Below are positions 1,422 to 24,505 of a stretch of 26,726 bases of DNA, piece after piece. Both the position numbers and the translations under genes were made by a program. The notes below the pieces were generated by a model that worked only from the letters and a program-made list of their open reading frames with translations, had not been told where the DNA came from and did no database searches. The stretch's first letter is position 1, and the number at the start of each line of letters is the position of its first letter. The DNA lies in IMG/VR virus record IMGVR_UViG_3300021368_001214, positions 1 through 26,726 of that record. One strand, 5' to 3'. Origin of the DNA: a virus.

Positions 1422-1464
1422 TTGATTACCCAAGTAATATACCATAAAAAAACCCCCTATGCAA
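1422..1464 (-). promoter_or_regulatory. Sigma70-type (early) promoter with shared leader motif
   Basis: On the minus strand, TTGCAT (1459-1464) and TATATT (1436-1441) are separated by exactly 17 bp and match the -35/-10 pattern of the host housekeeping sigma factor. Three bases after the -10 comes TGGGTAATCAA (1422-1432), an 11-bp motif that also follows the -10 box of the promoter at 19401-19429. The -35 box lies in the loop of the terminator that closes the fibre block. Confidence 0.7.
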
Positions 1465-1470
1465 GGGGGT
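1446..1470 (-). terminator. Rho-independent terminator after the fibre block
   Basis: A 7-bp stem (ACCCCCT 1464-1470 with AGGGGGT 1452-1458, minus-strand reading), a 5-nt loop and a run of seven T. It lies about 22 bp after the stop of the Gly-rich adhesin gene and separates late fibre transcription from the downstream small-gene operon. It overlaps the -35 box and spacer of the next promoter. Confidence 0.9.
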
Positions 1471-1492: not shown

Positions 1493-2698
1493 TTAAGTGC
1501 GATATCGAAGCATCACGACACCAGATCCACCAGATCCACCAGTGCCGCTATCTTCTCCACCACCACCGCCACCAGTGTTGGCAGTACCAGGACTAGGATC
1601 AGTGTTAGGACTCTGACGACCACCAATGCCGCCGCCACCAAGACCACCACGACCCACTTCAGCGTTGGATTCAACTCCACCACCACCGCCACCTGCTAAC
1701 CAATAACTTCTGTTAACTCTTTCTCCAATAGTTGTAACTTCACCGAAGGGATTAACAACACCGAAACCACCATTTCCAGCAAAATCATTATTTCTAGCGT
1801 TTTCACCAGGGGCACCAGCGCCACCGCCACCACCTTGAGGATAGTGAGGACCACCACGACCACTAGCACCAGCAAAACCCTGCCCAGTAGTTCCAGCAGC
1901 GCCAGCACGAGTGCTCACAGAACCTCCACCAGAACCTCCAGTTCTTCCAGTTGCAGAACCCCAAGATGCTCCACCACCACCGCCAGTGGATGAAATACCA
2001 TTAAAAGATGATGGACTGCCGTCACTAGCATCTGATCCAGAACTACCAGACCCAGGACCACCAGGACCAACTACAACAGGATAAGACCCAGGACCGATGC
2101 TCATCGCTGCTTCAGCAGTAGCGCCACCACCTGAAGGGAACCCAGGAACATTAGAGCGATAACCACCAGCACCACCACCAGCACCAACGTCACCGCCGCC
2201 GCCTCCACCGCCGCCAGCAACTACAACATATTGAATGTCATCTGTTCCAGAAGAAACTGTAAATGTTCCATCAGAAGTAAACACATGGTATTTCCAACCA
2301 TCACCAGGTTCATATTCATTGTTACCACCAGATGCCACCAATGGATCAGACTGACCTAAGGTAATTTGAACCCAAGAAGTTGTTGCTACATCATAAATTT
2401 CTAACTTACTATCAGCAGTATTAACACCAACCAAACCATTAACTAATCCAGATGTAGGTCTGTTACCAGTACCATTCCATGTGGGATATTGCCCACCACC
2501 TTTAACAATATTCCATGCAGATCCATCATAAACTTCTAATGCACCCTCTGTTGTGTTATATACAGTTTGACCAGCAACAGGACTACTAGGTCTAGTTGCA
2601 GCAGTAACTGAAGGAAACTTAAATCCACCAAGCGCCTGCAATACACCAGTGCTGGTGATATTAGTTGCCTGTAAATGATCTACGTTAAACTGACCCAT
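1493..2698 (-). CDS. Gly-rich tail-fibre adhesin, 401 aa
   Basis: Residues about 26-66 and 75-115 are two copies of the fibre module shared across this block (FKFPSVTAATRPSSP...NTTEGALEVY and PTWNGTGNRPTSG...NTADSKLEIY). They are followed by a beta segment (YHVFTSDGTFTVSSG...YVVVAGG) and then about 230 residues dominated by Gly runs, ending SGVVMLRYRT. This matches the general 'glycine-rich' phage tail adhesin pattern, in which Gly stretches can pack as polyglycine-II helices with variable loops at the tip, as in the S16 gp38 adhesin. Likely role: receptor binding at the fibre end. It is the last gene of the late block, preceded by a CTAAATA motif and followed by a terminator. The function is family-level inference. 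Confidence 0.7.
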   Translation of the reverse strand: MGQFNVDHLQATNITSTGVLQALGGFKFPSVTAATRPSSPVAGQTVYNTTEGALEVYDGSAWNIVKGGGQYPTWNGTGNRPTSGLVNGLVGVNTADSKLEIYDVATTSWVQITLGQSDPLVASGGNNEYEPGDGWKYHVFTSDGTFTVSSGTDDIQYVVVAGGGGGGGGDVGAGGGAGGYRSNVPGFPSGGGATAEAAMSIGPGSYPVVVGPGGPGSGSSGSDASDGSPSSFNGISSTGGGGGASWGSATGRTGGSGGGSVSTRAGAAGTTGQGFAGASGRGGPHYPQGGGGGAGAPGENARNNDFAGNGGFGVVNPFGEVTTIGERVNRSYWLAGGGGGGVESNAEVGRGGLGGGGIGGRQSPNTDPSPGTANTGGGGGGEDSGTGGSGGSGVVMLRYRT

Positions 2699-2720
2699 TT
2701 TTCAAATAACTTTATAGTGA

Positions 2721-2727
2721 TATTTAG
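2721..2727 (-). promoter_or_regulatory. Late promoter motif CTAAATA
   Basis: The minus strand reads CTAAATA, close to the T4 late -10 element TATAAATA recognised by the gp55 sigma factor. It overlaps the TAA stop of the upstream fibre gene (2724-2726) and lies 22 bp before the ATG of the Gly-rich adhesin gene. Confidence 0.55.
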
Positions 2728-3827
2728 TGAAGTAAGACATATACAGCAGTGCTGTAATCTCTACGGTTAGTATTATTACCGTCTCTAGAACCGTCAGCGA
2801 ATCTATCCATGAAACATCTTCTACCATCATCATGACCATATTGAGTTTGCACATCTTCATCCTGTCCAGATGTAGATCTATGTGAGTCTGTACTGAACTT
2901 AGCATCAGAAGCATTATTCAAGTTAAATGAACCTGCACTGGTAAATGCACCTTCAGCAATACTAACGTTAGTATCAGACATTTGCATAAATCCATAATTA
3001 GGATTTGCCCATCTGCCTCTACCATCCCATGATCCTTGAGTTGAAAATCCTTCTCTTCGGATTCTATCCATTCCAGAACTTCTACCATTAGTCCAGAATC
3101 TTTTCCATTGCCTACCATTAGGAACTCCATGCCAGAAGTCAAGGTTTCTATTGTTTGACCAATCACTGATACTGTTAACACCGATGTGACGAACAAAGGA
3201 TGGATAATAATCACCAAAGTCAGCACTGAATTCTGTACCTGTATTGTTTTGAACAGTTACACCACGAGTAGTGGTGATAGTATTTGTTACAGTATCAGAA
3301 GCATCACTGTTAAATTTACCTACAACCATCCAACCTGCACCCTTATCAAAGATACAGTAAATTTGTTGAACACCACCGTTAGGAGTATCAATATAATATA
3401 AACCATCGGCGGGTGTTGATTCCGCAGTTTCCAGAACTTCTTGAGCATCAGCAGCAGGATTTGATGCTGTTAATCCTTTAGCACCACCTCCTGCTCCACC
3501 ACCACCTACAACATTCCAACCATTAGAAAGATAAACTTCAAATTTATCAGACTCTGTATTAAATCCATATGCACCAACTGGTTGTGATGCAGGGCGAGTA
3601 GAATTATCCCATGTCGGAGTTGAAGCACCACCAAGAGATGACCACCCACCTGCTGCTCTGAGATTAAGAGCTCCAGCAGTGTTATTCCATACTAAAACAC
3701 CATCATCAGCAGAAGTTGGTCTAGTTGCAGTATCATATGAAGGCAGTTGAAGTTGTCCCGTGGTTGATACATAACCAGATGCAACAACTCTACCAGCAGT
3801 TATAGAACCAACAGTTAATTGTGACAT
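2724..3827 (-). CDS. Tail fibre with fibrinogen-like C-terminal domain, 367 aa
   Basis: Two N-terminal copies of the shared fibre module occur (LQLPSYDTATRPTSADDG...NNTAGALNLR and PTWDNSTRPASQPVG...NTESDKFEVY). After a short GGGGAGGG hinge comes a segment matching the start of fibrinogen-related domains: aliphatic YYIDTPNGGVQQIYCIFDKGAG, then GWMVVGKF (about residues 145-170). Near the C-terminus, SGQDEDVQTQYGHDDGR (about 321-337) resembles the acidic Ca-binding region of fibrinogen domains. Such domains bind sugars or acetylated groups in animal lectins, so host-surface recognition is likely. A similar arrangement is found in the fibre encoded at 4970-6157. Confidence 0.7.
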   Translation of the reverse strand: MSQLTVGSITAGRVVASGYVSTTGQLQLPSYDTATRPTSADDGVLVWNNTAGALNLRAAGGWSSLGGASTPTWDNSTRPASQPVGAYGFNTESDKFEVYLSNGWNVVGGGGAGGGAKGLTASNPAADAQEVLETAESTPADGLYYIDTPNGGVQQIYCIFDKGAGWMVVGKFNSDASDTVTNTITTTRGVTVQNNTGTEFSADFGDYYPSFVRHIGVNSISDWSNNRNLDFWHGVPNGRQWKRFWTNGRSSGMDRIRREGFSTQGSWDGRGRWANPNYGFMQMSDTNVSIAEGAFTSAGSFNLNNASDAKFSTDSHRSTSGQDEDVQTQYGHDDGRRCFMDRFADGSRDGNNTNRRDYSTAVYVLLH

Positions 3828-3850
3828 AGTTCAAAAAATACCTTATACCT

Positions 3851-3857
3851 TATTTAT
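3851..3857 (-). promoter_or_regulatory. Late promoter motif ATAAATA
   Basis: The minus strand reads CATAAATAAGG, a 7/8 match to the T4 late element. It overlaps the TAA stop of the gene encoded at 3854-4939 and lies 23 bp before the ATG of the next fibre gene. Confidence 0.6.
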
Positions 3858-4939
3858 GGAATGTAACCAAGCATATAAACAGTGTCGCCCTGCTGGGGAG
3901 CACTGGTGGCAATACCAGGACCAGTCTGAGAGGTGTTACCAATTCTTTGACTGCTTGAGTTTGAGTGGAAGTCATCACCCCAATAACTCCAGAATGTTTG
4001 TGATGGGTTTTGTCCTCTCCAACTATCCATCTTACCGTTTGCTAAGTTTCCATCGAAAGCACACAATGCCTGTGTGTCATCGTCAGAATCAGTATTGATA
4101 CCCCAATATACAAATCTATCAGGTGTATTACCATTATTTGCTTGCCAACCACCACCTGAAGCAGATAAAGTTCCACTATAACCATTACTATTACCAGTGA
4201 TCTGATTAACAGAAGGATTTGTATATCCACTAGCGTTTTGTGCTGCCAACTGTTGAGATTGGCATAAGTTGTCAATATTAAGTAATGTTTGATGTACTGA
4301 AGCACTCTGCGTTTCAACTAAATCATAAACAAGGTACTTAGAATGTGACGTTGGATCTTGTAAGTCACCAGTACCACTGACGAGAGCAACTTTGGTAACT
4401 CCAGTGGCAGTAAAGTAACCATCATATAATCCTTCACCATCACCAAATGCAGTTCTATTATTAGCACCTGTACTACTAGCAGTAATACTTCTCCAACCAC
4501 TACTTCCAGGATTACCTAAATTAGTAGATCTTGACTTCGCCCCAGCAGTCATCATGATAATGACCCAGTTAGCAGGAGCATATACATCTCCCAATGTTAA
4601 CCATTGTGCTTGATTATTTGCATCGAGATTATATACTTCAAACTGTTGAGTTTCTTGATTATATCCAAAATAACCTGGTGCCAAACCAGATGTAGGTCTC
4701 TGTGCCGTAGTTGCCCAAGTAGGATTTGCTTCACCACCAGAAAGATCTACCCAAGAACTATTAGACCACACCTGAATTTTAGAGTCAGTTGTGTTCCAAA
4801 TCATCGTGCCATCTGGACGACTGGTAGGTCTTTGTGCAGTAGAATAAGAGGGTAGTCTAAAACCCTCAGCAGAATCAATGCTGTCAACTGCTTGTAGAGT
4901 TCCTGAAGAAGATACAGTAGTTACATTTAACCTTGGCAT
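3854..4939 (-). CDS. Tail fibre protein with unrecognised C-terminal tip, 361 aa
   Basis: Two N-terminal shared fibre modules are present (FRLPSYSTAQRPTSRPDG...NTTDSKIQVW and PTWATTAQRPTSG...NQETQQFEVY, about residues 27-118). The C-terminal 230 residues are rich in Ser, Asn, Gly and Trp, with an acidic stretch (NTDSDDDTQALCAFDG, about 275-290), two widely spaced cysteines and a hydrophobic end (GDTVYMLGYIP). I do not recognise the tip; the Asp-rich stretch could bind calcium. Late motifs lie on both sides. The fibre assignment rests on the shared modules and position. Confidence 0.65.
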   Translation of the reverse strand: MPRLNVTTVSSSGTLQAVDSIDSAEGFRLPSYSTAQRPTSRPDGTMIWNTTDSKIQVWSNSSWVDLSGGEANPTWATTAQRPTSGLAPGYFGYNQETQQFEVYNLDANNQAQWLTLGDVYAPANWVIIMMTAGAKSRSTNLGNPGSSGWRSITASSTGANNRTAFGDGEGLYDGYFTATGVTKVALVSGTGDLQDPTSHSKYLVYDLVETQSASVHQTLLNIDNLCQSQQLAAQNASGYTNPSVNQITGNSNGYSGTLSASGGGWQANNGNTPDRFVYWGINTDSDDDTQALCAFDGNLANGKMDSWRGQNPSQTFWSYWGDDFHSNSSSQRIGNTSQTGPGIATSAPQQGDTVYMLGYIP

Positions 4940-4963
4940 TTCAGTCTGTCAGTATATCTTTAG

Positions 4964-4970
4964 TATTTAT
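4964..4970 (-). promoter_or_regulatory. Late promoter motif ATAAATA
   Basis: The minus strand reads GATAAATA ending at 4964, which overlaps the TGA stop of the upstream fibre gene (4970-4972) by one base. It lies about 24 bp before the ATG of the gene encoded at 3854-4939. Confidence 0.6.
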
Positions 4971-6157
4971 CACTTAATCCACCACCACAATGGTGTGGTT
5001 GTAATTGCACCATTATTTCCTGCATTACTTGTAGCAGTGGATGTGGCACCACCCCAATCAACGTTATCATCATTACCAATCTTTGCAGCAATGTTACTGT
5101 CAACATCTTGTCCAGAGACATCAGTATTTGCACCTTGAGTTGGAATTGATAATGATCCATCAACGTCAGAACCAGATCTTTGAGCATAGTTTGCACTTCT
5201 ACCAACACGAAACCATTCAAACTGCTGACCAGGATTACTGATTGCATTCCAAACATCAAAGAATCCTGATTGAGGTGCCTGGTTATTACCAATAGTACCG
5301 TAACTATAATCAGCAGTATCATTTCTAGATCCTTGATATCCAAAATCACTTAAGTTGTTGTACTTGTGATTTGGATTATTATATGCAAACTTGATATTGT
5401 AACTGCTGTCAAACTTTCTCATAGAACATCTTTGGACACTAGGATTACTACCATTAGACAGATAATATCTAACATTACCTGCATTAGGTGACCAAACTTC
5501 TTTCCAAGTAATTGGATTATTCCATCTGTAATACCAGTCTGCTGATGCACTAGCACCTAACGTAGTTTCAATACTGGTATTTGCAGTTACTCTAAATTCA
5601 GTAATTGGCATGTCATAGAAATTAGATGAAGGATTATAATGCTGTGATCCACCAGGATCAATAACCTGATCGGTTGTGACAATATTTTGTCCGTCACCAC
5701 CCCATCTATAACCCTCTCCAAATGATGCCACTAACATCCATCCACTGTTACCATCTTGATCTAGAGTATCAAAATCACAAAATACTTGTTTTACTCCAGC
5801 ACTGGTGTTAATCCATCGATAACCCTTTCCACTCGTTACTAGACCATCATCATACAATTGTTTTGCAGAATCTCCATAGGTTGCTGCTGATGTACCATCA
5901 AAAGTTGCACCCTTTGGCATATCTACCCATTGAGTTCCATCATAATACTCACCAATACTTGTACTGGTATTATAACGAATCATGCCTGCTGTAGGTGATG
6001 CAGGACGTTGAGCAGTAGTTCCTCTAGGTAAAGTAAGTTGCGCTCCAGCAGTCATCGCAAAAGAACCATTAACATTTAAGTGGGAAGAACCCTCCATGTT
6101 AATTGTCCAATCATTCCAGTCAGGACCATATAGGTTGTTAGTGTTTAGTGTGCTCAT
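4970..6157 (-). CDS. Tail fibre with fibrinogen-like domain, 395 aa
   Basis: I start it at the ATG at 6157 (MSTLNTNNLYG), which overlaps the upstream stop as TAATG. The frame extends 8 codons further upstream, but only inside the preceding gene. One shared fibre module (LTLPRGTTAQRPASPTAG...NTSTSIGEYY) is followed by a fibrinogen-like segment: AKQLYDDGLV, GYRWINTSAGVKQVFCDFDT and GWMLVASFG (about residues 95-155). SGQDVDSNIAAKIGNDDN (about 353-370) parallels the SGQDED...GHDD stretch of the 367-aa fibre. It ends with a Trp-rich tail (LWWWIK). Probable receptor-binding fibre that uses a lectin-like fold; the substrate is unknown. Confidence 0.7.
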   Translation of the reverse strand: MSTLNTNNLYGPDWNDWTINMEGSSHLNVNGSFAMTAGAQLTLPRGTTAQRPASPTAGMIRYNTSTSIGEYYDGTQWVDMPKGATFDGTSAATYGDSAKQLYDDGLVTSGKGYRWINTSAGVKQVFCDFDTLDQDGNSGWMLVASFGEGYRWGGDGQNIVTTDQVIDPGGSQHYNPSSNFYDMPITEFRVTANTSIETTLGASASADWYYRWNNPITWKEVWSPNAGNVRYYLSNGSNPSVQRCSMRKFDSSYNIKFAYNNPNHKYNNLSDFGYQGSRNDTADYSYGTIGNNQAPQSGFFDVWNAISNPGQQFEWFRVGRSANYAQRSGSDVDGSLSIPTQGANTDVSGQDVDSNIAAKIGNDDNVDWGGATSTATSNAGNNGAITTTPLWWWIK

Positions 6158-7530
6158 TAGTTCTTCTTCATTAGACCCCAATTCATGACCAGCATATAAC
6201 CATTGGATGCACCAAAGTTATTGCCCCACAATCTCCAATATCTATATTTAATACCTTGAGTGTTAACAGGATGCCACTTATTTGGATCATTAACAGTATT
6301 AGAATAAACATGATTACCTTGATTGTAAATCAAATAACCATCATTACTACCTGATCCATTGTGATATCGCCACTCCGACACATCAGTCCATCTACTATCA
6401 TCATTTGATCCTTGCACCAAGTTAAAATCAGACCAGTGATTGTCACCAGGATAACCAATAGCCCAGGTATAATCGAACGAAGTTTCATTGCCAGCGCCCA
6501 AATCTACGCGAATCCAGTTAGTACCACCTTGCTGCTGGATGCCATATGAGGGCCAATTACTTGTCGTAGTTCTATCTACAGCATCAGCAACATTGGCAGG
6601 ATTACTACTACCCTGACCAGAACTTGTATTGTTAGTCCAGTTAAAGTTAGTAGCGTTTCCTAAAGGACCAGTAGGCGTCAGATAGTTTGTATAATCACCT
6701 GCTTGAATCTCAACAGGTCTAGTGTCCAGATAGATGTAAATTCTTTCTTCTGTATTACCACCGCCACTACCTGAATGTGGTATAACTTTATTCAAAATAC
6801 CACCATAGTTACCAGTGGAGTCAATGTTACCCCAATACATGCCACTGCCCCAGACAGTACCAGGGTTGCCTAAAGTAACAATATCATGAGTTTCACCACC
6901 ACCATTGTTGTGTTGGAAGTTTAGTGATTCTCCAACTTTACCAGATGATCCAGCAATGGGACTAACACTATATTGATTATTGTTTCCTGCTGCCCAATCA
7001 CTATAGTTGTTTAATAAAGACGATAAAACAGTATCCATATTATCTGCGTTTCTGTTAAATCTCCACTGAACATGTGGTTTGAGATTACTTGTGAATACAA
7101 CAGTATTCCAGCGGGTGTCTGCTGAAACATTTGTCCAAGTTGTAGCAGTTACACTATTATCTGACTCTTTTACCGTTCCTAAATCTAAGAAGTTAGGTGA
7201 TCTTGCATCACCGTTTTCATCCATAACATAAACTAAAATTTGATCAGGAGTTGGTGTAGTTCTATTAGCACTACCTCCTGTTTCTTCATATGATCCCCAA
7301 GCACCATTACGATAAAGTTCAATCTTATTTGTATCTGTGTTAAATCTAAAATATCCCGTCGTCGGACTACCAGGTCTTTGTGATGTATTACCAGTGGGTA
7401 ATTGTAAAGCACCAGTATTTGCAGCAAGATCTAATACACCATTGACTCTAAAAGTATGACCAGCAGGAATAGTAACCTGGTCTAGAGTTGCTGTAATACC
7501 TTTTAATTTTGAAGTAGTAACTCTACTCAT
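6157..7530 (-). CDS. Tail fibre with discoidin (F5/8 type C)-like C-terminus, 457 aa
   Basis: One shared fibre module near residues 40-80 (LQLPTGNTSQRPGSPTTG...NTDTNKIELY) is followed by a beta-rich middle of unclear type. The last ~145 residues carry the hallmarks of an F5/8 type C (discoidin) carbohydrate-binding jelly roll: ANVADAVDRTTTSNW, WIRVDLGAGNETSFDYTWAI, FNLVQGSNDDSRWTDVSEW, and a final YRYWRLWG strand. Such domains bind sugars or lipid headgroups. It is coupled to the next fibre gene by a TAATG overlap and preceded by a CTAAATA late motif. Confidence 0.7.
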   Translation of the reverse strand: MSRVTTSKLKGITATLDQVTIPAGHTFRVNGVLDLAANTGALQLPTGNTSQRPGSPTTGYFRFNTDTNKIELYRNGAWGSYEETGGSANRTTPTPDQILVYVMDENGDARSPNFLDLGTVKESDNSVTATTWTNVSADTRWNTVVFTSNLKPHVQWRFNRNADNMDTVLSSLLNNYSDWAAGNNNQYSVSPIAGSSGKVGESLNFQHNNGGGETHDIVTLGNPGTVWGSGMYWGNIDSTGNYGGILNKVIPHSGSGGGNTEERIYIYLDTRPVEIQAGDYTNYLTPTGPLGNATNFNWTNNTSSGQGSSNPANVADAVDRTTTSNWPSYGIQQQGGTNWIRVDLGAGNETSFDYTWAIGYPGDNHWSDFNLVQGSNDDSRWTDVSEWRYHNGSGSNDGYLIYNQGNHVYSNTVNDPNKWHPVNTQGIKYRYWRLWGNNFGASNGYMLVMNWGLMKKN

Positions 7531-7552
7531 TTTATCAGATGCCTATACGTTG

Positions 7553-7559
7553 TATTTAG
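7553..7559 (-). promoter_or_regulatory. Late promoter motif CTAAATA
   Basis: The minus strand reads CTCTAAATAC. The motif contains the TAA stop of the 77-aa gene (7556-7558) and ends 22 bp before the ATG of the discoidin-like fibre gene. Same arrangement as at 2721 and 8228. Confidence 0.6.
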
Positions 7560-7789
7560 AGATTCTTCCAAGTAGTTCCTGTGTAGATCTCTAGTTTATC
7601 ACTGGTTTCATTATATCTGATGCTACCAGGATAAGCATATGAAGGTCTCTGTGCTTCAGTTCCAAAAGGTAGAGGAATATACTGTTGATTGTTAACTCGT
7701 AGATCACTTGCCATTCGTAATCTACTGCCAGAATCTAATTCTACTGTGAAGTTGGGAGCATTTCCTTGTATAGAACCAACATTAATCAT
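7556..7789 (-). CDS. Mini fibre-module protein, 77 aa
   Basis: Starts at the ATG at 7789 (MINVGSIQG), which overlaps the upstream stop as TAATG. The 5-codon upstream extension is unlikely. The protein is little more than one copy of the shared fibre module: an N-terminal strand region, then IPLPFGTEAQRPSYAYPG...NETSDKLEIYTGTTW, and it stops right after it. It therefore has the docking-type module but no tip domain. It could be a structural cap, a fibre chaperone, or a remnant that lost its tip. The short length and position between full fibres are notable. Confidence 0.65.
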   Translation of the reverse strand: MINVGSIQGNAPNFTVELDSGSRLRMASDLRVNNQQYIPLPFGTEAQRPSYAYPGSIRYNETSDKLEIYTGTTWKNL

Positions 7790-8205
7790 TAGACAACACT
7801 CCAAGAACCACCTGATTCAACGGTGACAGTGTAACCGTTAGCAATAGTGATAGGACCAGAACTCATGCCATTTGCAAATTCAGCACCAGCGGTAGGTCCA
7901 ACAGTGATATTTTCTGAAATGGTGTTTGGATTTGTTCTAATAATACTATCTGTACCTAATGCAGGACCACCACCAGAAACTGCTGACCAACCTGCACTAC
8001 CCGAACCATCGTCTGCCTTGTAGATTTCAGCAGCGTCAGTATCAGTATTAAAACGAATTGTACCAGGTGAAACACCTGTTGGTCTCTGTGCTTGAGTTCC
8101 AGTAGGTAACCTGAATACACTGCCTGTATTCAGGAAACTTAGAGTAGTTAAGATTGCTTCAGTTGCTGTGGAAATCTGATTTCCACTAATTCTTGCGATT
8201 GCCAT
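7789..8205 (-). CDS. Short tail-fibre-like protein, 138 aa
   Basis: The N-terminus (MAIARISGNQIST) leads into one shared fibre module at about residues 30-74 (FRLPTGTQAQRPTGVSPG...NTDTDAAEIY). The C-terminal 60 residues form a small beta-rich region ending VTVESGGSWSVV, a terminal strand often seen at the ends of phage fibre domains. It is probably a small trimeric fibre or baseplate-attached connector. It is the first gene of the seven-gene module family in transcription order and has a CTAAATA motif overlapping the stop of the 1320-aa gene upstream. Confidence 0.6.
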   Translation of the reverse strand: MAIARISGNQISTATEAILTTLSFLNTGSVFRLPTGTQAQRPTGVSPGTIRFNTDTDAAEIYKADDGSGSAGWSAVSGGGPALGTDSIIRTNPNTISENITVGPTAGAEFANGMSSGPITIANGYTVTVESGGSWSVV

Positions 8206-8227: not shown

Positions 8228-8234
8228 TATTTAG
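8228..8234 (-). promoter_or_regulatory. Late promoter motif CTAAATA
   Basis: The minus strand reads ATCTAAATAATACGGAGGATA. The motif contains the TAA stop of the 1320-aa gene (8231-8233). A GGAGG follows, about 15 nt before the ATG of the 138-aa gene. Confidence 0.6.
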
Positions 8235-11200
8235 ATAGGCAGTTCGAGAATATGAACCGTATCAGTTGATAAAGGTGCATCACCAGATGCGAACACAACG
8301 TTAGCACCATTAGAATCAACGGTATAATTAGTACCAGCAACCTGTGCTACACCATTCAAGAATACTAATAGAGAATCATCAGTATGTTGAATACCACCAG
8401 CATATGTTGAGACTGCAAATGTTAATGTAGATCCATCACCAGTGTAGGTCTTAGTGATATACTTATCAGCACCAACACCACCTCTACCAGTAACAACCAA
8501 GTCGCCATCAACTCTTACGTTACCATCTACGTTAACCCTGTAAGAATTATTAGGAGCAGTGCCAATACCGATAATTGTGCTGTTGTTGTAAGAACTAATA
8601 TTAATGTCACCAGTATCCGTGAGACCAAACTCTTTCCACGCTCCACCGTAGTATATCCAACCAAGCGACTTGCCAGGTGTCCAGTTGATGTTATAAACAA
8701 GATCACCATCAGCAGGGGTATCGTATCCTGTGATATTAGCAAAGCTGGGTTGTCCATTTGCATCTTCAGGTGCCAGTAAGGTTTGTTTAATTACCGTACC
8801 ATCCTGATTGTAATATGAGATCTTTCTTGCTTGAATATTATTTGTAAATGTAGTCAGACCTTGGAAAGTAACGGGACCAGCGAAAATCGATTCCAACTGG
8901 TTGGATGCACCACCAATAACAGTCAGTTTGTCAGTAAGAACCAACTCAGAGAATGTTTCAATAGTAGTGTTTTCTTCACCAACAACATTAAGTTGTGCAA
9001 TATCTTCGTTTGTAATTTGACCAGTAACAGGGTTAATAACCTGGTTACCAATGAACAGGTCACCATTAGAGTTCAAACCAGAATAGAATGAAACTCCACC
9101 CTCTTCTTTGATAGACTGTGAGAATCTAACTTGCTCAGGTGTTAGTGTCTCTACCTGAGTTTGAGGGAATGCAGTTGAGTAGTTACCAGGACCGAAACCA
9201 AGATATTCAAACGTGTGATTACCAGATCTCAGAATTGAGTGGCGTCTAAACTCAACATTGATAGGTGCAACTGTACCATCAGTATTTTGTCTGACATTTA
9301 TCTTCCTCGTTTCTTCATCTCCAGAACGAGCAGTAAGTTCAACGTTAGAAAGTCTAGCATTAACTGAGTCATAGTTTGGAGTTGTACCTGGTTGTGTCCA
9401 ACCAGTATCAGTTAAAAGGAATTGTACTGCTTCTTTGGTGATAGATCTCTTAGGATCTTTTGCTGGAGTTGGTGATGCACCATCAGTTGCATTTACGAGA
9501 CCGATAGTTTCGTTGTCAGCGACGGATACCGCAGCAAGAGGGTCAGCAACAGGGTTGTCTCTGTCAAACGTAGGATAGACTTCGTTGACATTTTGAGAGA
9601 ACTTCCTGTCGTTGAAGTTACTAGTGCTAGGTGCAATAGATGCACAAAGCAGGGTAAGGTAATAGATTCCATCTGCAACACCTCTTTCAAACTTCTGGAC
9701 AACTTCGATATCGTAGATATAGAAGGCACGTTGTAAATTATATGATGTAGTATCACTATTCAGAGGTTGCATCACGAAACCACTGATAGGATCTCTAGGC
9801 AGGGGATTAGTCTTATCCTTGTCAATTACATAACGAACACGATAGGTTCTGTCTTGTAAATCGCGAGGGTCAGGAATCCTCTTAATGAATGTAGTAGGAG
9901 TAAAGTTAACAGTATTATATTGTGTATTTGTAGATAAGGTAGTGTAGATTGCATTATCTACAGAATCGACAGAGAGATACCAACCACCAACAGAACCAGC
10001 AACACCACCGATTGTATATGTGGTGCTGTCATATTGAATGGGAGATCCAGTTGTTCCTGCTGCTTTACCCGATACAGAAGGACCGTATGGAGAAATTTTA
10101 GCAGTCTGAACTGTTGCTTCTGTAGCACCATTTGCAACTAAGAGGCAGTTGATTTTGTCTGGGATAGCAGTATTACCCGTGCCATCTTGACGTGCACCAA
10201 CGGTGTAACCTTGGACTCTAGTTGTAGGAGGAGACGCTTCAACCGTGTATCCGTAAAGATATAATCGTGTTCCAGGTGTTCCTCCTTGTCCAGCAAGTGC
10301 TGAGTTAATTACTTTTGTTCTTTGAATATCAATATTGACCCAGTTAACTGAAGTCTCTTCACCGAAGATGACGTTACCATTAACTGTAGCAGTATTTGCT
10401 GCTGTAAGAGTAACAACTCTAGTGTTTGTATTAACTGTTCCTACGAGTGCTCCAGTACCAATACCAGTACCACTTACTGTCATACCTTCGATGATACCAT
10501 TGATAGAACCATCGTTAGCAACAGTGATAGAAGACGCGGCGTTTGTACCAGTCGCTGTTGTTGAAATTGTGTTAAGTGCTTTAGGTGGAATAACGTGAGT
10601 GATTGCACCTGCTTTATCTTTCGAGAATGCTTTTGCTTTGAATCCAGCAGATCTGAGAGCAGTATTACCGAAGTTAGAGTTAGAGTTCGTGATGGACATG
10701 TCACCGCCGCTCAGTGCAGTGAAGTGACCTTGATATCCAACAGCGAACACCGAAACTGCCTGAATGAAGGAGTCATTAGAACACTTAATGTGCTCATGTC
10801 CCCATCCCTTACGATACTCAGCGAAACCATCTAAGTGAGCACCATCACCAGCAGTTGCTACGTCATAGTTACCAGTAGAAGCATTATATCTTACGAATGC
10901 TCTATCATCTTTCTGTAGAGATAGACCAGTGAACTGTGCAACAACCATCGATTTGAAACCAGTTGCCTTAGCACCGTTTGCGTGCATACCATTCATACCC
11001 CAGACACTTCTCAGTGACAGGTTGAACGCATATGGTGATGCAGAGTCAACAGTATCAATCTCAGTCTTAACAGTGATGTTAGAACCTACAGCATTTCCTG
11101 TTGGTTCTCCTTGCATTTGGTAAGTAAAGACGTTACCAGATGCGGATGTGACTGTAAAAGACCCGTTGTAAATTCCTGCATCAAGTTCGGATTGCGGTCC

Positions 11201-12193
11201 AGTTGATCCAGTAACACCACTAACGTTGATGTTAACACCAACGGAAAATCCGTGATCCCTGGGGTTATCAAACTCATCAACAGTAACTGCCGTTGCTGTC
11301 TGACCATTTCTTGTGATCTGAAGGACTCTGTATTCATCAGAAATAGGACCAACGATACGATTTTCTTCTACCCTTGCCTGAATCTGATCAGTTGCAGGAT
11401 CGCCAGATGTATCAGGAATTGTAGCAAATGCTTTAGATACTTTTTGATAGTAAATCTCTAAGTCTGTCCTTTCCAGGATGTTAGGCACAGCAGAATAATC
11501 TGCATTAGGAACTGTGCCCTGAGAGATCAGATTTGAAAGTGTATTAACACCATCAGCAAACTCAAAGCAAGTGAGTCTATGGTGTGAAAACTTAGGTGCT
11601 AATGTTTCTGTACTGTCAGGTTTGTAATATACGCCTTCCTCAGCACCATCGAAGAAGGAGAACTGCCAGAAATATGTACCACCTGTGACCTTGAAGATTG
11701 CGGTGCGGGGAGGTACTTGATCCTCTGTATTGATTCCCTTAGCAGCATATGTCGTAGGATAAGGAACGTACTTAGGAATAATCTTGGTACGACGAAGATC
11801 GGTGCCAACCAGCGAACAACCTCTGGGAACAATGATTCCTCCTTCAATTGAATTGTACTTGTACAAAACATTATTAGGAGAAGTCAGATCAAGGTTAGAG
11901 TTTGCATCTAAAGGAGCAACGTTGGTATAAAGAACGTCACCAGGTCTATTATCAACGATATATTCTGCTGGATACAGCATAATCGAGAAGGCGTCGAATT
12001 CGTCGTTCGACAGACCTACTCGATACGAAAATCTAGCAACCTCAAGGAATGCTCTTTGAAGAGACTTAAACGGTCTCAGTGCAGAGTTGCCCCTGTTGTC
12101 AATAGCATCAGATGCATCAAAGTCGTCAGGGTTAACGTAAATAATACGTCCAGTTCTGGACGTAATAATATTCTTAAGTCTAGTAAGGGACAT
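8231..12193 (-). CDS. Large virion structural protein (tail or fibre), 1320 aa
   Basis: The largest gene in the window. The N-terminus (MSLTRLKNIITSRTGRIIYV, then NRGNSALRPFKSLQRAFLEVA and GGIIVPRGCSLVGTDLRRTKI) looks like the entry to a parallel beta-helix of the pectate-lyase-like type: repeated short strands, aligned Gly/Asn turns. I recall this start from large structural proteins of T4-like cyanophages. The middle has repetitive Ser/Thr/Gly-rich strand segments. The C-terminus (YTGDGSTLTFAVS...LLVFLNGVAQVAGTNYTV) resembles a small beta domain common at phage tail-protein ends. Probably a long tail fibre or baseplate-associated spike. A late motif precedes it. Confidence 0.7.
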   Translation of the reverse strand: MSLTRLKNIITSRTGRIIYVNPDDFDASDAIDNRGNSALRPFKSLQRAFLEVARFSYRVGLSNDEFDAFSIMLYPAEYIVDNRPGDVLYTNVAPLDANSNLDLTSPNNVLYKYNSIEGGIIVPRGCSLVGTDLRRTKIIPKYVPYPTTYAAKGINTEDQVPPRTAIFKVTGGTYFWQFSFFDGAEEGVYYKPDSTETLAPKFSHHRLTCFEFADGVNTLSNLISQGTVPNADYSAVPNILERTDLEIYYQKVSKAFATIPDTSGDPATDQIQARVEENRIVGPISDEYRVLQITRNGQTATAVTVDEFDNPRDHGFSVGVNINVSGVTGSTGPQSELDAGIYNGSFTVTSASGNVFTYQMQGEPTGNAVGSNITVKTEIDTVDSASPYAFNLSLRSVWGMNGMHANGAKATGFKSMVVAQFTGLSLQKDDRAFVRYNASTGNYDVATAGDGAHLDGFAEYRKGWGHEHIKCSNDSFIQAVSVFAVGYQGHFTALSGGDMSITNSNSNFGNTALRSAGFKAKAFSKDKAGAITHVIPPKALNTISTTATGTNAASSITVANDGSINGIIEGMTVSGTGIGTGALVGTVNTNTRVVTLTAANTATVNGNVIFGEETSVNWVNIDIQRTKVINSALAGQGGTPGTRLYLYGYTVEASPPTTRVQGYTVGARQDGTGNTAIPDKINCLLVANGATEATVQTAKISPYGPSVSGKAAGTTGSPIQYDSTTYTIGGVAGSVGGWYLSVDSVDNAIYTTLSTNTQYNTVNFTPTTFIKRIPDPRDLQDRTYRVRYVIDKDKTNPLPRDPISGFVMQPLNSDTTSYNLQRAFYIYDIEVVQKFERGVADGIYYLTLLCASIAPSTSNFNDRKFSQNVNEVYPTFDRDNPVADPLAAVSVADNETIGLVNATDGASPTPAKDPKRSITKEAVQFLLTDTGWTQPGTTPNYDSVNARLSNVELTARSGDEETRKINVRQNTDGTVAPINVEFRRHSILRSGNHTFEYLGFGPGNYSTAFPQTQVETLTPEQVRFSQSIKEEGGVSFYSGLNSNGDLFIGNQVINPVTGQITNEDIAQLNVVGEENTTIETFSELVLTDKLTVIGGASNQLESIFAGPVTFQGLTTFTNNIQARKISYYNQDGTVIKQTLLAPEDANGQPSFANITGYDTPADGDLVYNINWTPGKSLGWIYYGGAWKEFGLTDTGDINISSYNNSTIIGIGTAPNNSYRVNVDGNVRVDGDLVVTGRGGVGADKYITKTYTGDGSTLTFAVSTYAGGIQHTDDSLLVFLNGVAQVAGTNYTVDSNGANVVFASGDAPLSTDTVHILELPI

Positions 12194-12214: not shown

Positions 12215-12221
12215 TATTTAT
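12215..12221 (-). promoter_or_regulatory. Late promoter motif ATAAATA
   Basis: The minus strand reads TAATAAATAATC. The motif shares one base with the TAA stop of the 480-aa gene (12221-12223) and lies 21 bp before the ATG of the 1320-aa gene. Confidence 0.6.
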
Positions 12222-13663
12222 TAGGAACCGAAAACTCTAGTTGTCAATGCCGTGGAAGCATCTTGGAATCCAACTAGACTAAAAACGTTGTTTTGAGTTG
12301 CACTCTCAACAACCAATCTTTCGCCAGGTCCAATGACGAGAGATGTAATTCTGTCAACATTATTGTTGGCATTTGCCTTATCTTTGGTAAGATAATTCTG
12401 ATCTTCAAGTGCAGTAGATGCAACGGTGACACTACTGACTGTTGCCAATGTTCTAGATTGTTCATTATCTGCGGGAACATCACGGAAAGTATCACTTCCA
12501 GCAAAGTCAGCGGATCCAATACCTTTAATCACATAAAGTGTCGTTCCAGAATAAGAACGAACAACACCGAAAGGACCAGCAGTTTGTGCAGTGACAGTGT
12601 AGGTGATACCAGCGTTCAGGAAACCATCGCTACTGTTTGTCCAAGTGCCTTCAATGTCATAAACATAGATTTCACTGTATGTAACAGTCTCAGTAGTTTG
12701 AATGTAACGATCACTTCCACCATAGTTTGCATTAGCAGCGGTGCCAGTGCCACCATCATAGAAGTATAAATTGGTCGGAGTGTTTTCGTTTGCACCAAAA
12801 TCAAATTGAATATATGCACCACTAGAACCTGCTGTACCATTGGTAGTTTTACCAGTGGTAAATTCTGCACCATCGTCAGAGTTACCAGCAGTATTATCAG
12901 GACCCCACTCACCATTAATAGTAGTAGAAAGACTAAAGTCTCTACCACTCATAGAGGAATCCGATGTATCAAAACGATATACTCTATCAGAGAAAAGTGT
13001 AATACCACCATCTAATGCAAGACTATATGTTCCACCTGATGTTGTGGTTGAAAGTACAAACTCATTCACAGCAGATCCAACACCACCAGAAGAAACTGTT
13101 GCTGTTGCACTACCTGAAGTTACCGAATCACCAGCGGCAAATTCTGAACCAGAACCGTTAATAGTTGAAGGACCAACATAAATGATGTTGTTCTTATAAA
13201 AATAAACTGTGGCAGTTGTAGTGTTACCACCAGTTCCCTTAGTCAGAGTGTCACCAGGAGCAGGAAGACCAGAAAGAGATTCTACAGTGATTGGTCTGAC
13301 TGCAACATCCTTAACAAAGACAGAGGTGAATGTGGGGATATAAAAAGATTCAAAACGAAACTTCTTCTCACCATCTGTGCTAGTGAATTGTTGTCCTGGT
13401 TGGAAACCAGCACCACTACTGATAGGAGTACCTACCGTAAATCTATACCCACTGATGATATCACCTTCGTGGAGTTTATACGTTGATGCGTCCAACGTAA
13501 GTTTTTGATCAAAATCTTTGATCGCTACATCATATGCTGCACCAGTACCATCATTTGCGATAGTTAATACTGCGCTAGCAGATTGATTTACAGGAGCACT
13601 ATACAGGACTGTATTAGTTGTTCCCGCTGGTTTTGCTTGTCCTAAAAGTCCTTGGTCTGCCAT
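12221..13663 (-). CDS. Virion structural protein, beta-rich, 480 aa
   Basis: Begins MADQGLLGQAKPAGTTNTVLYSAP. The sequence is almost free of Cys and rich in Gly, Ser, Thr and Val, with regular beta-strand patterns. A segment near residues 120-200 (PGDTLTKGTGGNTTTATVYF) and repeats such as GSGSEFAAGDSVTSGSATATVSS suggest stacked beta repeats. It ends in a strand-rich domain (VIGPGERLVVESATQNNVFSLVGF), a common pattern in phage head/tail decoration proteins. It is separated by only 6 bp from the upstream 439-aa gene and has no late motif of its own, so the two are probably co-transcribed. Exact role unknown. Confidence 0.65.
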   Translation of the reverse strand: MADQGLLGQAKPAGTTNTVLYSAPVNQSASAVLTIANDGTGAAYDVAIKDFDQKLTLDASTYKLHEGDIISGYRFTVGTPISSGAGFQPGQQFTSTDGEKKFRFESFYIPTFTSVFVKDVAVRPITVESLSGLPAPGDTLTKGTGGNTTTATVYFYKNNIIYVGPSTINGSGSEFAAGDSVTSGSATATVSSGGVGSAVNEFVLSTTTSGGTYSLALDGGITLFSDRVYRFDTSDSSMSGRDFSLSTTINGEWGPDNTAGNSDDGAEFTTGKTTNGTAGSSGAYIQFDFGANENTPTNLYFYDGGTGTAANANYGGSDRYIQTTETVTYSEIYVYDIEGTWTNSSDGFLNAGITYTVTAQTAGPFGVVRSYSGTTLYVIKGIGSADFAGSDTFRDVPADNEQSRTLATVSSVTVASTALEDQNYLTKDKANANNNVDRITSLVIGPGERLVVESATQNNVFSLVGFQDASTALTTRVFGS

Positions 13664-13669
13664 TGTTAA

Positions 13670-14989
13670 TTAGAATCCTGCGTAGAAGAATTGTTGAAGT
13701 CGAGTTTGTCCCGACAGATTGTTTGCACCGATACCACCACCAAAGTTAACATCATCTAAAGTTACGTTATCAGTAGAAAGAAGCGTTGCATTAGCGTTGG
13801 GGAACCTAATAACTCTGTTACCAGTAATGTTATCAAGACTAAATGTTACCCCACCCGTATTACCGTCCTGCTTAATTGTAGGAACGTAAAGAGACTTATT
13901 CTTTAGGTCCTGTGTTGCAACTTCGCTAACAATAGTGTTAGGATCATTACCAGTATTTAGTAAATTAGTCGGAGGGAATTTGAATACCTGGTTAGAAAGT
14001 GTGTTCTGATTAGAAATATCAAAAGTTACTTTCTTAGTATTATCAGTTGAATCAGCAAGAATCAAACTGAGAATGGTTTTGTTAGATAAAATCTGTGTAG
14101 CATCTGTACCAACCAACGTAATGTTGGTGTCAGGCATAGTGATTGTTCTGTTTGCTGTAATAGCATCTGTATTGAACTGTGCCCAATTTGTAGCAGCTTC
14201 AGCATCAGTAGCAAGTTTCAAGTCAACCAACGTCTTATTCAACGCGGTTTGTTCTGCTTTTGTATCAAGAAGTGTGGATGATGTAGCAGTAGGTTCAGCA
14301 GTTGTAGTTACTGTTCCTGCATCAGGAAGGAAATATGAGCGTCTAGCATTACTAGTATCTACCCAGTTGATCTGGAAGATTGCTTCTTCAGTACCATCGA
14401 CAATAACAAGATTATCCTCATCAATAAGAATAGTTTTGTTAGTTAATGTCTGAGTAGTATTATCACCAACAACGGTAGTTCCGTTGCCAGAGGTAATAGC
14501 GGGAAGGGTGAAGATACGAGTATTAGTACCAGTACCAACGTTAGAAACTTCAAATCTCGCTTTAGGTCCTTGTGCATCTTCCAGGATAAAAGTTTGATCT
14601 GAGATAACAAAGTTACCCGTGACCTTTACAGCACCTGTACCTTTTGGTGCAAGAACAATATCAGCATTGTTAGCAACATCATCTGTAGCAGTGATGAATA
14701 ATGAAGTGCTACTATTACCATTATCAATCCGTGTCATATAGACACCACCATCACCAAATGCAATACCGATTTGATCATATGCATTTTGGTATAGACCAGT
14801 GTCTCGGTCCAAATCAAAACATAATCCAGGTGATGCCTTAGTGCCTGCTGTGACACCTTTGAACAACTGATTTACTTTTGCTTTTCGGTTAGGAATCAAC
14901 GGATCAGAGACAACAACTGGGAGAATTGCTTCACCCGAGATGTTAGCATCTGAGATTGTCTCTAACTGAGAAATTTTACGAGTTCCCAC
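13670..14989 (-). CDS. Tail-fibre-like virion protein with TxTNKT repeats, 439 aa, GTG start
   Basis: Begins GTG (MGTRKISQLETISDANISGEA), a plausible baseplate- or tail-attachment N-terminus. Three repeats contain the phage-fibre signature around L-x-N-K-T/S: TQTLTNKTILIDED, TQILSNKTILSLI and TQDLKNKSLYVPTI. Repeated motifs such as FxxPDxGTVTT and ITMPDTNITLVGTD occur between them. This pattern is typical of long beta-structured fibre shafts. The leader holds an exact TATAAATA 27 bp upstream. No clear Shine-Dalgarno precedes the GTG, but no in-frame ATG fits the N-terminal pattern better. It opens the late virion block. Confidence 0.7.
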   Translation of the reverse strand: MGTRKISQLETISDANISGEAILPVVVSDPLIPNRKAKVNQLFKGVTAGTKASPGLCFDLDRDTGLYQNAYDQIGIAFGDGGVYMTRIDNGNSSTSLFITATDDVANNADIVLAPKGTGAVKVTGNFVISDQTFILEDAQGPKARFEVSNVGTGTNTRIFTLPAITSGNGTTVVGDNTTQTLTNKTILIDEDNLVIVDGTEEAIFQINWVDTSNARRSYFLPDAGTVTTTAEPTATSSTLLDTKAEQTALNKTLVDLKLATDAEAATNWAQFNTDAITANRTITMPDTNITLVGTDATQILSNKTILSLILADSTDNTKKVTFDISNQNTLSNQVFKFPPTNLLNTGNDPNTIVSEVATQDLKNKSLYVPTIKQDGNTGGVTFSLDNITGNRVIRFPNANATLLSTDNVTLDDVNFGGGIGANNLSGQTRLQQFFYAGF

Positions 14990-15024: not shown

Positions 15025-15654
15025 CTATTTCCCATTACCTTTCCAACTGGTAAAGTAAGAGACGCAGAATCGACCATCCAAAGGATTGGTACTCAAATTC
15101 CTAACTTCACTCACTTCATGTTTGATTGGTCCTGGGAATATAACCATAGAATTATTCTTACCCTCTATACTCAAATCATAGTCAGTAAACTTAAACTCTC
15201 CGCCCTCAAACTTCTTAGGTTCTTTATACAACCAGAGGCAGTGAGTTGCCATGGTTAAATCTCTATGTGGTTTATAATAATCACCATCCTTATAATGAGA
15301 TATAAGAACACTAATTTGATTCCACTGGTGATCTTGAAAATAATAATTTTTATCTACCCAGTCAGATTTAGGATACGCCATAAGAACAGGACTGATAAAT
15401 CTATTGATTGCTGAGCAATTAGGTCTTGCCCATGCTTCCTGTAAAAACAATCCTGCATTCTTTTTGATATATTTCGGACCATCCATGGCACCACCAGTGC
15501 TTTCTGGACTCAAAAAGAAATTGTCGTAATCAGAACAATAGTATTCTAATTCCTTCCAAATAATTTCTAACTGATCATCAGAAAATACGTTTTCAATTAT
15601 CAAAAAGGGAAAGGGTTCGTTATAACTGTACCCTCTAAGATCGGGATTTATCAT
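15025..15654 (-). CDS. 2OG-Fe(II) oxygenase, prolyl-4-hydroxylase-like, 209 aa
   Basis: The catalytic core sits at residues 110-200. The HxD motif is H130-R-D132 (YYKPHRDLT), a FEGGEF loop (149-154) typical of P4H-type enzymes follows, the distal metal ligand is H179 (IFPGPIKHEV) and the probable 2-oxoglutarate-binding Arg is R195 (LDGRFCVSYF). This family hydroxylates proteins or small molecules using Fe(II), O2 and 2OG; the substrate here is unknown. It is the last gene of the second accessory operon, overlapping the 54-aa gene upstream by 20 bp. Its stop abuts the exact late promoter for the next gene. Confidence 0.85.
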   Translation of the reverse strand: MINPDLRGYSYNEPFPFLIIENVFSDDQLEIIWKELEYYCSDYDNFFLSPESTGGAMDGPKYIKKNAGLFLQEAWARPNCSAINRFISPVLMAYPKSDWVDKNYYFQDHQWNQISVLISHYKDGDYYKPHRDLTMATHCLWLYKEPKKFEGGEFKFTDYDLSIEGKNNSMVIFPGPIKHEVSEVRNLSTNPLDGRFCVSYFTSWKGNGK

Positions 15655-17173: not shown

Positions 17174-17755
17174 CTATTTAAACGTTGGACCCATCATCCA
17201 AGCAACTAAAGATATACGTCTGCCCCTAGTTACTGGAAGAACTCTATGTGGAATCCATGCAGGAAAGACAATACAACCACCCTTAGCAGGTTTTATACGT
17301 TGATTGAAGTTAGGACCATAATTAATTTCAAACTCACCACCATCATATTCATCTGGATCACTCAGTAAAAAAGAACAAGAAAGTTTTCTTTCTAAGTTTG
17401 GTAAGTTTGATGTTCCCTTTATCATACTAGCATCATCATTGTCACAATGCCAATCGTAGAAATCATTTGTCTCACCATAGTAAATGGTGGATTGAATCTT
17501 GGATTGAAAATACTCAAGATCATATCCAAAATAAGTTTTATTGGCAGATACCATCATATTGTGTATGATACCAGGAATCCATTCGTCCCAAGGTATCCAT
17601 GCCACACTAGTAGATCTGACTTTCAAATCTTCTACATCGTTGGCAATTTGAGCGGTTTTATAATGCAGAGACTCAACATAAGTTACCATATTGTTCAATA
17701 GAACATCTGGCATATTACTAGGAATCTGATATAGAATTTTGGTTGTAAAAGACAC
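17174..17755 (-). CDS. 2OG-Fe(II) oxygenase, PKHD/P4H-type, about 193 aa
   Basis: Numbering from a GTG start at 17755, the core has H103-C-D105 (DWHCDND), the EYDGGEFEI loop (136-144), H170 (FPAWIPHRVLPVT) and R180 (RGRRISLV), all at the spacing of PKHD-type prolyl/peptidyl hydroxylases (PiuC/YbiX-like). The frame is open further upstream but only through tRNA-Asn. The GTG uses the tRNA discriminator base as its G. An ATG at 17713 is a possible shorter start, but the upstream residues (KILYQIPSNMPD) look native. Substrate unknown. It is transcribed in the tRNA-containing accessory operon. Confidence 0.85.
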   Translation of the reverse strand: MSFTTKILYQIPSNMPDVLLNNMVTYVESLHYKTAQIANDVEDLKVRSTSVAWIPWDEWIPGIIHNMMVSANKTYFGYDLEYFQSKIQSTIYYGETNDFYDWHCDNDDASMIKGTSNLPNLERKLSCSFLLSDPDEYDGGEFEINYGPNFNQRIKPAKGGCIVFPAWIPHRVLPVTRGRRISLVAWMMGPTFK

Positions 17756-17826
17756 TCCCCTTCCTGGGATCGAACCAGGGACCAATTGATTAACAGTCAA
17801 TCGCTCTACCGCTGAGCTAAAGAGGA
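17755..17826 (-). tRNA. tRNA-Asn (GTT)
   Basis: A full cloverleaf of 72 nt on the minus strand: acceptor TCCTCTT with AAGGGGA, D arm GCTC...GAGC, anticodon loop CTGTTAA with anticodon GTT, 5-nt variable loop, T arm CCTGG-TTCGATC-CCAGG, discriminator G. No encoded CCA. The acceptor end runs into the oxygenase gene's start. Confidence 0.95.
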
Positions 17827-18023: not shown

Positions 18024-18165
18024 GTTTTAGTTGGAAATACAGTTTATAGTACCTATCACACATTTCTCTGAGAACATCTCTGTCTTCATCAAAACCAAGT
18101 TTTTTAGTGTGTTGATAAGAACCTTCTAACTCTGATATGAGTAGAAGTATTTCCACGGGTTTCAT
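18001..18165 (-). CDS. Hypothetical protein, 54 aa, ending inside tRNA-Thr
   Basis: Begins MKPVEILLLISELEGSYQ and is helical and charged, with no motif recognised. The start shares ATGA with the stop of the oxygenase gene upstream. The last codons (HSSSDG) and the TAG stop are read from tRNA-Thr, and the stop falls in its D loop. No stop occurs earlier in the frame, so if expressed the protein must end inside the tRNA. Regular codons and coupling favour a real gene. Confidence 0.6.
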   Translation of the reverse strand: MKPVEILLLISELEGSYQHTKKLGFDEDRDVLREMCDRYYKLYFQLKRHSSSDG

Positions 18166-24434: not shown

Positions 24435-24505
24435 GGGCGAAGAGGGGATCGAACCCCCGACCGACTCGGTGTAAACGAGTAGCTCTACCGCTGAGCTATT
24501 CGCCC
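24435..24505 (-). tRNA. tRNA-Val (TAC)
   Basis: A 71-nt cloverleaf: acceptor GGGCGAA perfectly paired with TTCGCCC, D arm GCTC...GAGC, anticodon stem ACTCG/CGAGT, loop TTTACAC with anticodon TAC, T arm GGGGG-TTCGATC-CCCTC. No encoded CCA. Its first 10 nt hold the last two codons and TAG stop of the CpeT-like gene. Confidence 0.95.

Follow-up and report, generated by a model that had tools for sequence, protein, structure and literature searches.

The virus record IMGVR_UViG_3300021368_001214, which we analysed over its whole 26,726 bases (hereafter the window), represents part of the genome of a T4-like marine cyanomyovirus (Kyanoviridae). Seven consecutive genes on its minus strand, between positions 1493 and 8205, share a protein module of ~40 residues and end in different C-terminal domains. 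Our results indicate that these genes probably encode late-expressed virion fibre proteins, that is, receptor-binding adhesins, each made of an addressed stem, a clamp and an exchangeable tip. We use address for the N-terminal segment of ~25–50 residues before the module, stem for the address plus its module or modules, and tip for whatever follows.

According to this model, the address probably sets the docking site of each protein on the tail-fibre or baseplate structure, and three chains probably pack the module into a beta-prism clamp that would hold the trimer, two copies giving two stacked prisms. Every position except position 2 ends in a tip. The majority of tips look like domains of lectins or adhesins, and these probably contact the surface of the host. 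The junction between module and tip would be the site where recombination swapped tips between stems, and most of the stand-alone genes would have a late promoter motif of their own. Numbered in the order of transcription, the seven genes are:

7789..8205, minus strand: position 1 gene, 138 amino acids (aa); address, one module (~7972-8118) and a short conserved beta-type tip (NGMSSGPITI...SGGSWSVV)
7556..7789, minus strand: position 2 gene, 77 aa from the ATG at 7789; address and one module (~7559-7684), no tip
6157..7530, minus strand: position 3 gene, 457 aa; address, one module (~7285-7413) and a long tip resembling F5/8 type C (discoidin-like) domains; phrog_5636
4970..6157, minus strand: position 4 gene, 395 aa from the ATG at 6157; address, one module (~5915-6040) and a fibrinogen-like tip; phrog_5621
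3854..4939, minus strand: position 5 gene, 361 aa; address, two modules (~4736-4867, 4589-4729) and an unrecognised tip
2724..3827, minus strand: position 6 gene, 367 aa; address, two modules (~3627-3758, 3501-3632) and a fibrinogen-like tip
1493..2698, minus strand: position 7 gene, 401 aa; address, two modules (~2498-2629, 2360-2494) and a glycine-rich tip; Gly_rich_2

The start codons of positions 4 and 2 were corrected to those given here because the resulting lengths agree with those of the relatives.

A module shared by seven genes and conserved among cyanophages

Positions 5, 6 and 7 carry two module copies each and positions 1 to 4 one each, ten in all. When each gene was scored with a hidden Markov model (HMM) built from the copies in the other genes, the held-out modules of the window reached 25.8–50.9 bits, against 6–14 bits for the best of 1000 shuffled controls per gene. 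This bore out the claim of an earlier note, drawn from the letters of the window, that ten copies lie in seven consecutive genes; the copies do align in one HMM, and a model iterated over 95 loci again returned seven genes and ten copies for the window. None of the other window proteins tested, including the product of the fibre gene upstream of the array, matched the module HMM. A remote module that we had suspected by eye in that upstream gene was rejected, as its score was no better than chance. SAKe proteins, the top matches of the module, were also set aside: they match through six repeats of a short partial motif of ~20 positions.

The array genes match marine T4-like cyanophages. DNA similarity to the array region was found in 225 phage records, all of them Synechococcus or Prochlorococcus phages or cyanophages, and homologues of the position 1 gene in 294 phage records, again all cyanophages. 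For comparison we used 80 viral-contig loci, picked by similarity to the position 1 gene and including some isolates, together with 14 isolate loci; compared loci and genomes are labelled with L-numbers (L002, L014, L026 and so on). Across these loci the number of module genes ranged from 1 to 7, and at the ACG-2014d locus no hit passed. The module is carried by 18 of 19 complete isolate genomes, in 1–10 copies located nearly always at the array locus. Synechococcus phage ACG-2014a has the same seven-gene array, with near-identical gene lengths and equal module counts.

Addresses from the same array position can be recognised as such in related genomes, as with M..NVGTIxGNSPNF in position 2 and MSxxxTxKLKGIxATLxQVTIP in position 3. 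The N-terminal segments were clustered by single linkage, and average linkage was added because single linkage merged them too much; the average-linkage cluster A20 still has outliers. Short module proteins with no tip (76–89 aa) recur, as the window gene at 7556-7789 and as SSM1_045 and SSM1_046 of phage S-SM1 (L101), and they stop a few residues past the last strand of the module.

Identity of the tips

The tip descriptions of the earlier note (Gly-rich, two fibrinogen-like, discoidin-like, one unrecognised at 3854, one short at 7789-8205 and none at 7556-7789) held, with support that differs among them. The tip of position 7 matched Gly_rich_2 at 8e-21. For the fibrinogen-like tips of positions 4 and 6, the family profile matched the serum lectin 7e1e (3.7e-7 over ~54 positions) and angiopoietin (0.03), and a structure search with Foldseek returned H-ficolin (E 0.03) and angiopoietin domains, weak matches obtained with a low-confidence model. 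Five of the six members of the position 3 tip family matched F5_F8_type_C_2, weakly (best 9e-4), and an ACG-2014a protein with the length of the position 3 orthologue (463 aa) is named 'F5/8 type C domain-containing'. The profile search with position 3 gave chance-level matches only, as did that with position 5, for which we found no known match beyond the module; single-sequence searches of the PDB with the position 3 and position 6 proteins returned nothing useful.

The C-termini, described earlier as unrelated, are generally so, except that both fibrinogen-like tips belong to a single sequence cluster. Over the 95 loci the tips formed 27 sequence clusters, and 53 genes were tipless. The arrays of relatives also bear Phage Tail Collar, Laminin_G_3 and ALK_LTK glycine-rich domains as tips.

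Evidence for exchange of tips between stems

Stems and tips disagree in four comparisons. At position 5, compared among the otherwise collinear arrays of the window, L082 and L033, the stems (address plus modules) are 39–48% identical and the tips 23–24%, close to the 20–21% of shuffled sequences. L026 bears a fibrinogen-like tip on a stem of the position 2 type, which is tipless in the window, and has a position-3-type stem without a tip, discoidin-like in the window. The 83 genes of the position 3 stem group, defined by single linkage, carry tips of seven different clusters or none. Within L014, the tips of positions 2, 3 and 4 are 74–78% identical to one another and their stems only 25–37%, although in part of these pairs one member comes from L013, a near twin of L014. 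L054 and L026 repeat this pattern, and identity climbs near the end of the module. Sequence comparison thus gives good support to an exchange of tips between stems, both within one genome and between genomes.

This exchange is far from free. Position 1 has one type of tip in 94 of 94 loci, extended in some isolates (the protein reaches 287 aa in S-SZBM1 and 305 aa in Syn9), and some last-position stems also retain their tip type. The tips had been called interchangeable; exchange between stems stands, and free interchange does not. In the c1 tip family, the tip and stem trees follow position for the most part (6 and 3 label changes, with a minimum of 2). Since these tips now group mostly by position, the copies appear to have arisen in an ancestor and to have been inherited from then on; ongoing gene conversion of tips, which we had considered, is not supported, as c1 tips follow their positions. 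Judging from these sequences, exchange is occasional and position-dependent, not continuous, and tips and stems then co-evolve. Between close relatives we found purifying selection on both stems and tips. The tipless gene of position 2 is under purifying selection as well, with a nonsynonymous divergence (dN) of 0.17 and a synonymous divergence (dS) of 0.85 against L002.

Predicted fold of the module

Next to the sequence data we set AlphaFold models of a tipless 77-residue protein and of the 395-residue fibrinogen-like protein. The module was predicted with a local distance difference test score (pLDDT) of 90–94 in the former and of ~74–83 in the latter, and the order of its strands was identical in both (57-60, 65-69, 74-76 and 60-63, 68-72, 77-79). 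The expectation that the module forms one conserved fold in different genes was thus upheld for two of them, and the models make the module a three-stranded sheet in each chain.

With the tipless model, Foldseek returned the tailspike TSP3 of phage CBA120 (probability 1.00, 42 columns, 1.4 A), followed by TSP4-N, the Mtd N-terminus and the trimerisation domains of collagens XV and XVIII. The sequence profile of the module also reached TSP3, near the end of that protein, and from length and context the two matches would fall on one site. Residues 598-627 of TSP3, in its domain D4, form a sheet of three strands that is part of a trimeric beta-prism II (PMC6517402), and on the basis of the models the module most likely corresponds to this D4 region. 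We take the relation to TSP3 as good evidence because two weak methods agree on one protein. A search of predicted viral structures found the module fold in 35 proteins at E < 0.001, including ACG-2014a proteins of 79, 396 and 463 residues, the orthologue lengths of window positions 2, 4 and 3.

The module had been proposed as a docking/trimerisation unit. Trimerisation is the better half of that label because the fold matches solved trimerising beta-prisms, and by the predicted structures the module would trimerise. Docking fits it less well: since the module is common to all positions, the position-specific N-terminal segment is the likelier docking element.

Late promoter motifs at the gene junctions

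We searched the junctions between genes for TAAATA at 15–40 bases before the start codon. It was present at 64 of the 79 junctions with a gap of 4–60 bases, where 3.6 were expected, at none of 94 overlapping genes, and at 81 of 697 other open reading frames (ORFs) used as controls, a mechanically called set in which some ORFs are not true genes. As published, the late promoter is NATAAATA (PMC2984593). In the window, late-promoter-like motifs precede five of the array genes, and at these junctions the motif overlaps or abuts the stop codon of the preceding gene:

8228..8235, minus strand: TCTAAATA, before position 1, overlapping the upstream stop
7553..7560, minus strand: TCTAAATA, before position 3
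4964..4971, minus strand: GATAAATA, before position 5
3851..3858, minus strand: CATAAATA, before position 6
2721..2728, minus strand: ACTAAATA, before position 7

Across the whole window, TATAAATA with one mismatch was not enriched (40 found, 42 expected), so the signal lies in the location of the motif at gene junctions. From the presence of TAAATA at the stand-alone junctions, most array genes that stand alone are probably late cassettes, each self-contained.

Genomic setting and virion evidence

The array lies directly downstream of genes that PHROG assigns to tail fibres. In the order of transcription, phrog_694 is followed by a stretch with tRNA genes and 2OG-Fe(II) oxygenase-like ORFs, then by phrog_692, phrog_693, phrog_529 and the seven array genes:

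19431-21971: baseplate hub and lysozyme gene, phrog_694
13670..14989, minus strand: upstream virion structural gene, phrog_692
12221..13663, minus strand: upstream tail fibre/structural gene, phrog_693
8231..12193, minus strand: upstream tail fibre gene, 1320 aa, phrog_529, with no module detected
1446..1469, minus strand: terminator-like hairpin (CCCCCTTGCATAGGGGG) with a T run, immediately past the final array gene, identified by reading the sequence

The hairpin marks the end of the array block. With the baseplate hub phrog_694, then phrog_692, 693 and 529, ahead of the array, the region coincides with the host recognition cluster of cyano- and pelagimyophages, which is placed downstream of VrlC/gp5 within the structural region, among tail fibres (PMC7029224). 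The product of the upstream fibre gene 8231..12193 is a candidate attachment partner of the array proteins. A fusion between this gene and position 1 had been suspected from PHROG 745 (1452 positions, module part 1133-1275) and was discarded, as the matches in 11 genomes cover only 1112-1407.

Evidence from particles comes from phage S-SZBM1, in which locus 51 (SSZBM1_51) occupies the place of position 1 and matches the same PHROGs. One peptide of its product was found in purified particles, beside the strongly detected products of loci 52-54 (PMC9146016).

Other features of the neighbourhood were recorded as well. ORFs resembling 2OG-Fe(II) oxygenases lie near the structural genes at 15025-15654 (phrog_61) and, identified by eye, at 17174-17800, 18162-18722, 21990-22697 and 22585-23148; such genes directly adjoin the fibre array in other isolates. 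A tRNA-Asn gene (17755-17826) overlaps the predicted start of ORF 17174-17800, so the true start of this ORF is probably further downstream. A CpeT-like antenna protein gene (24496-24951) adjoins a conserved gene of CP12 size (24941-25168, phrog_627), as it does in Syn33. Immediately 3' of the fibre array, on the opposite strand, P-RSM4 (L085, 4193-5857) and S-CAM8 (L086, 4612-6222) carry a Nol-like carbamoyltransferase gene, whose product might modify a fibre or a host surface sugar.

Weighing the interpretations

Several of our results weigh against reading the array as a set of trimeric, receptor-binding tail fibres. Some phages have only one or two module genes, and in S-WAM1 the module profile found no module, yet a position 1 homologue is present, so that a large array is not essential. 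The fibrinogen-like call on the window proteins lies below curated cut-offs, as does the match to the NCBIfam entry GGGWT, and the position 3 protein of the window has no Pfam F5/8 type C match, only a resemblance below the curated cut-off. The AlphaFold predictions are of monomers, and that of the 395-residue protein is poor over most of the tip. No fold match in the PDB reached E < 0.001 (the best, for the stem, was 0.06), and the profile matches of the module to TSP3 (residues 585-621, E 0.29) and to Gp49 (E 0.012) are each weak alone. The detection in virions is that of one peptide, from one position, in a distant phage, and in 11 genomes we saw no module gene fused to the upstream fibre.

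The array proteins could instead be decorations or accessory adhesins of the virion, such as head or collar fibres or general carbohydrate stickers, that do not decide the host range. The generic sugar-binding or adhesin types of the tips would suit this, as would the wide variation in number and content of the arrays, down to one or two genes, and the S-SZBM1 study assigned no long tail fibre and saw only position 1 of the array family (PMC9146016). We consider this unlikely: the array genes directly follow the PHROG tail-fibre genes and sit inside the known host recognition cluster, one relative has a Phage Tail Collar domain as its tip, Syn33 has a gp38-like fibre assembly gene near the array, and among solved structures tailspikes are nearest to the module. 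Slightly less probable still is that the module itself, as a small lectin-like beta-prism, binds the host, the tips being secondary or structural. TSP3 D4 does have the architecture of a beta-prism II, which was originally observed in a lectin that binds mannose (PMC6517402), and tipless stems are common (the 53 genes above), that of the window being under purifying selection; but the module sits between address and tip with its key residues kept in every gene, the large differences being in the tips, and more variation would be expected of a surface that meets variable receptors.

About as improbable as the latter is that the set arose by whole-gene duplication and uneven divergence, the apparent swapping reflecting stems that diverge faster than tips. 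The stems of positions 6 and 7 are indeed less conserved than their tips, and the c1 trees, both mostly ordered by position, speak for long joint travel of tip and stem. Nevertheless, position-specific stems keep their identity across genomes and yet bear unrelated tips or none, L026 and the window differ in which stem has a tip, and identity climbs near the module/tip junction in three genomes. Duplication alone is insufficient because it yields neither the discordance between stems and tips nor the difference between L026 and the window. Fibre proteins with exchangeable tips are our preferred reading.

A review of T4-like cyanophages noted that their tail fibre proteins were 'missing' and perhaps to be found among unassigned structural proteins (PMC2984593). 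The array is probably this long-missing host-gripping apparatus of the cyanomyoviruses, a putative role for which it offers a concrete candidate, widely conserved and found in almost every isolate checked, in common viruses of ocean photosynthesis. The array is a putative host-range toolkit, the name that the earlier note gave it. A more far-reaching idea, possible but short of probable, is that the genome encodes a library of tips: each stem would have its own site, the common trimerising clamp would double as the recombination joint, tips would be copied from stem to stem within the genome, and a virion would display several tips and reshuffle them with no DNA from outside. As tip types can be mapped to stem positions genome by genome, host range becomes testable against tip content, and the module gives a natural boundary for the expression of tips. 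The conserved tipless protein of position 2 raises the question of what purpose a fibre stem without a tip serves.

Comparison with known systems

Pfam gave no match of the array proteins to the families of the T4 long tail fibre (gp34-37). The Pfam family DUF7360 (PF24059), to which no function is assigned, is 39 positions long, like the module, and matched 6 of 32 module sequences (best E 6e-6); in two relatives its bit scores were 14.6 and 14.9, below the cut-off of 27.6. Mtd, the tropism determinant of a Bordetella phage, carries a C-type lectin diversified by a reverse transcriptase. By Foldseek, the small beta fold of its N-terminal domain (PF18454) resembles that of the module, and one relative matches this domain in Pfam below the threshold.

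In work on metaviromic islands of marine phages, genes for fibrinogen-like, lectin-like and tail fibre proteins were flagged as variable host recognition genes; these are annotations in islands, not an array with a shared module (PMC3909814). The host recognition cluster is in the same genomic place, a variable region downstream of VrlC with tail fibres. The available part of its source describes a hypervariable fibre region, not a shared module, position-specific addresses or an exchange of tips from stem to stem (PMC7029224).

A close parallel is the branched tailspike complex of the Ackermannviridae. Phage CBA120 carries several receptor-binding proteins per virion (TSP1-4), joined via N-terminal segments and ending in swappable receptor-binding ends (PMC8825819, PMC8432352). 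Pfam and PHROG scans reported no gp10-like XD2/XD3 domains of the kind found in an anchoring protein, and Foldseek touches TSP4-N. The two systems differ in that TSP3 D4 is C-terminal, while the array module lies between address and tip; in that the array tips resemble lectin, fibrinogen or Gly-rich domains and not catalytic beta-helices; and in that an array has up to seven genes, some of them tipless. They are alike in that the best solved matches of the module are TSP3 and TSP4-N. The array has seven module genes side by side, adjoining tail-fibre genes, and their products are putative receptor-binding proteins. By analogy, the array may work like the branched tailspike complex of the Ackermannviridae, as a variant of the multi-receptor-binding systems.

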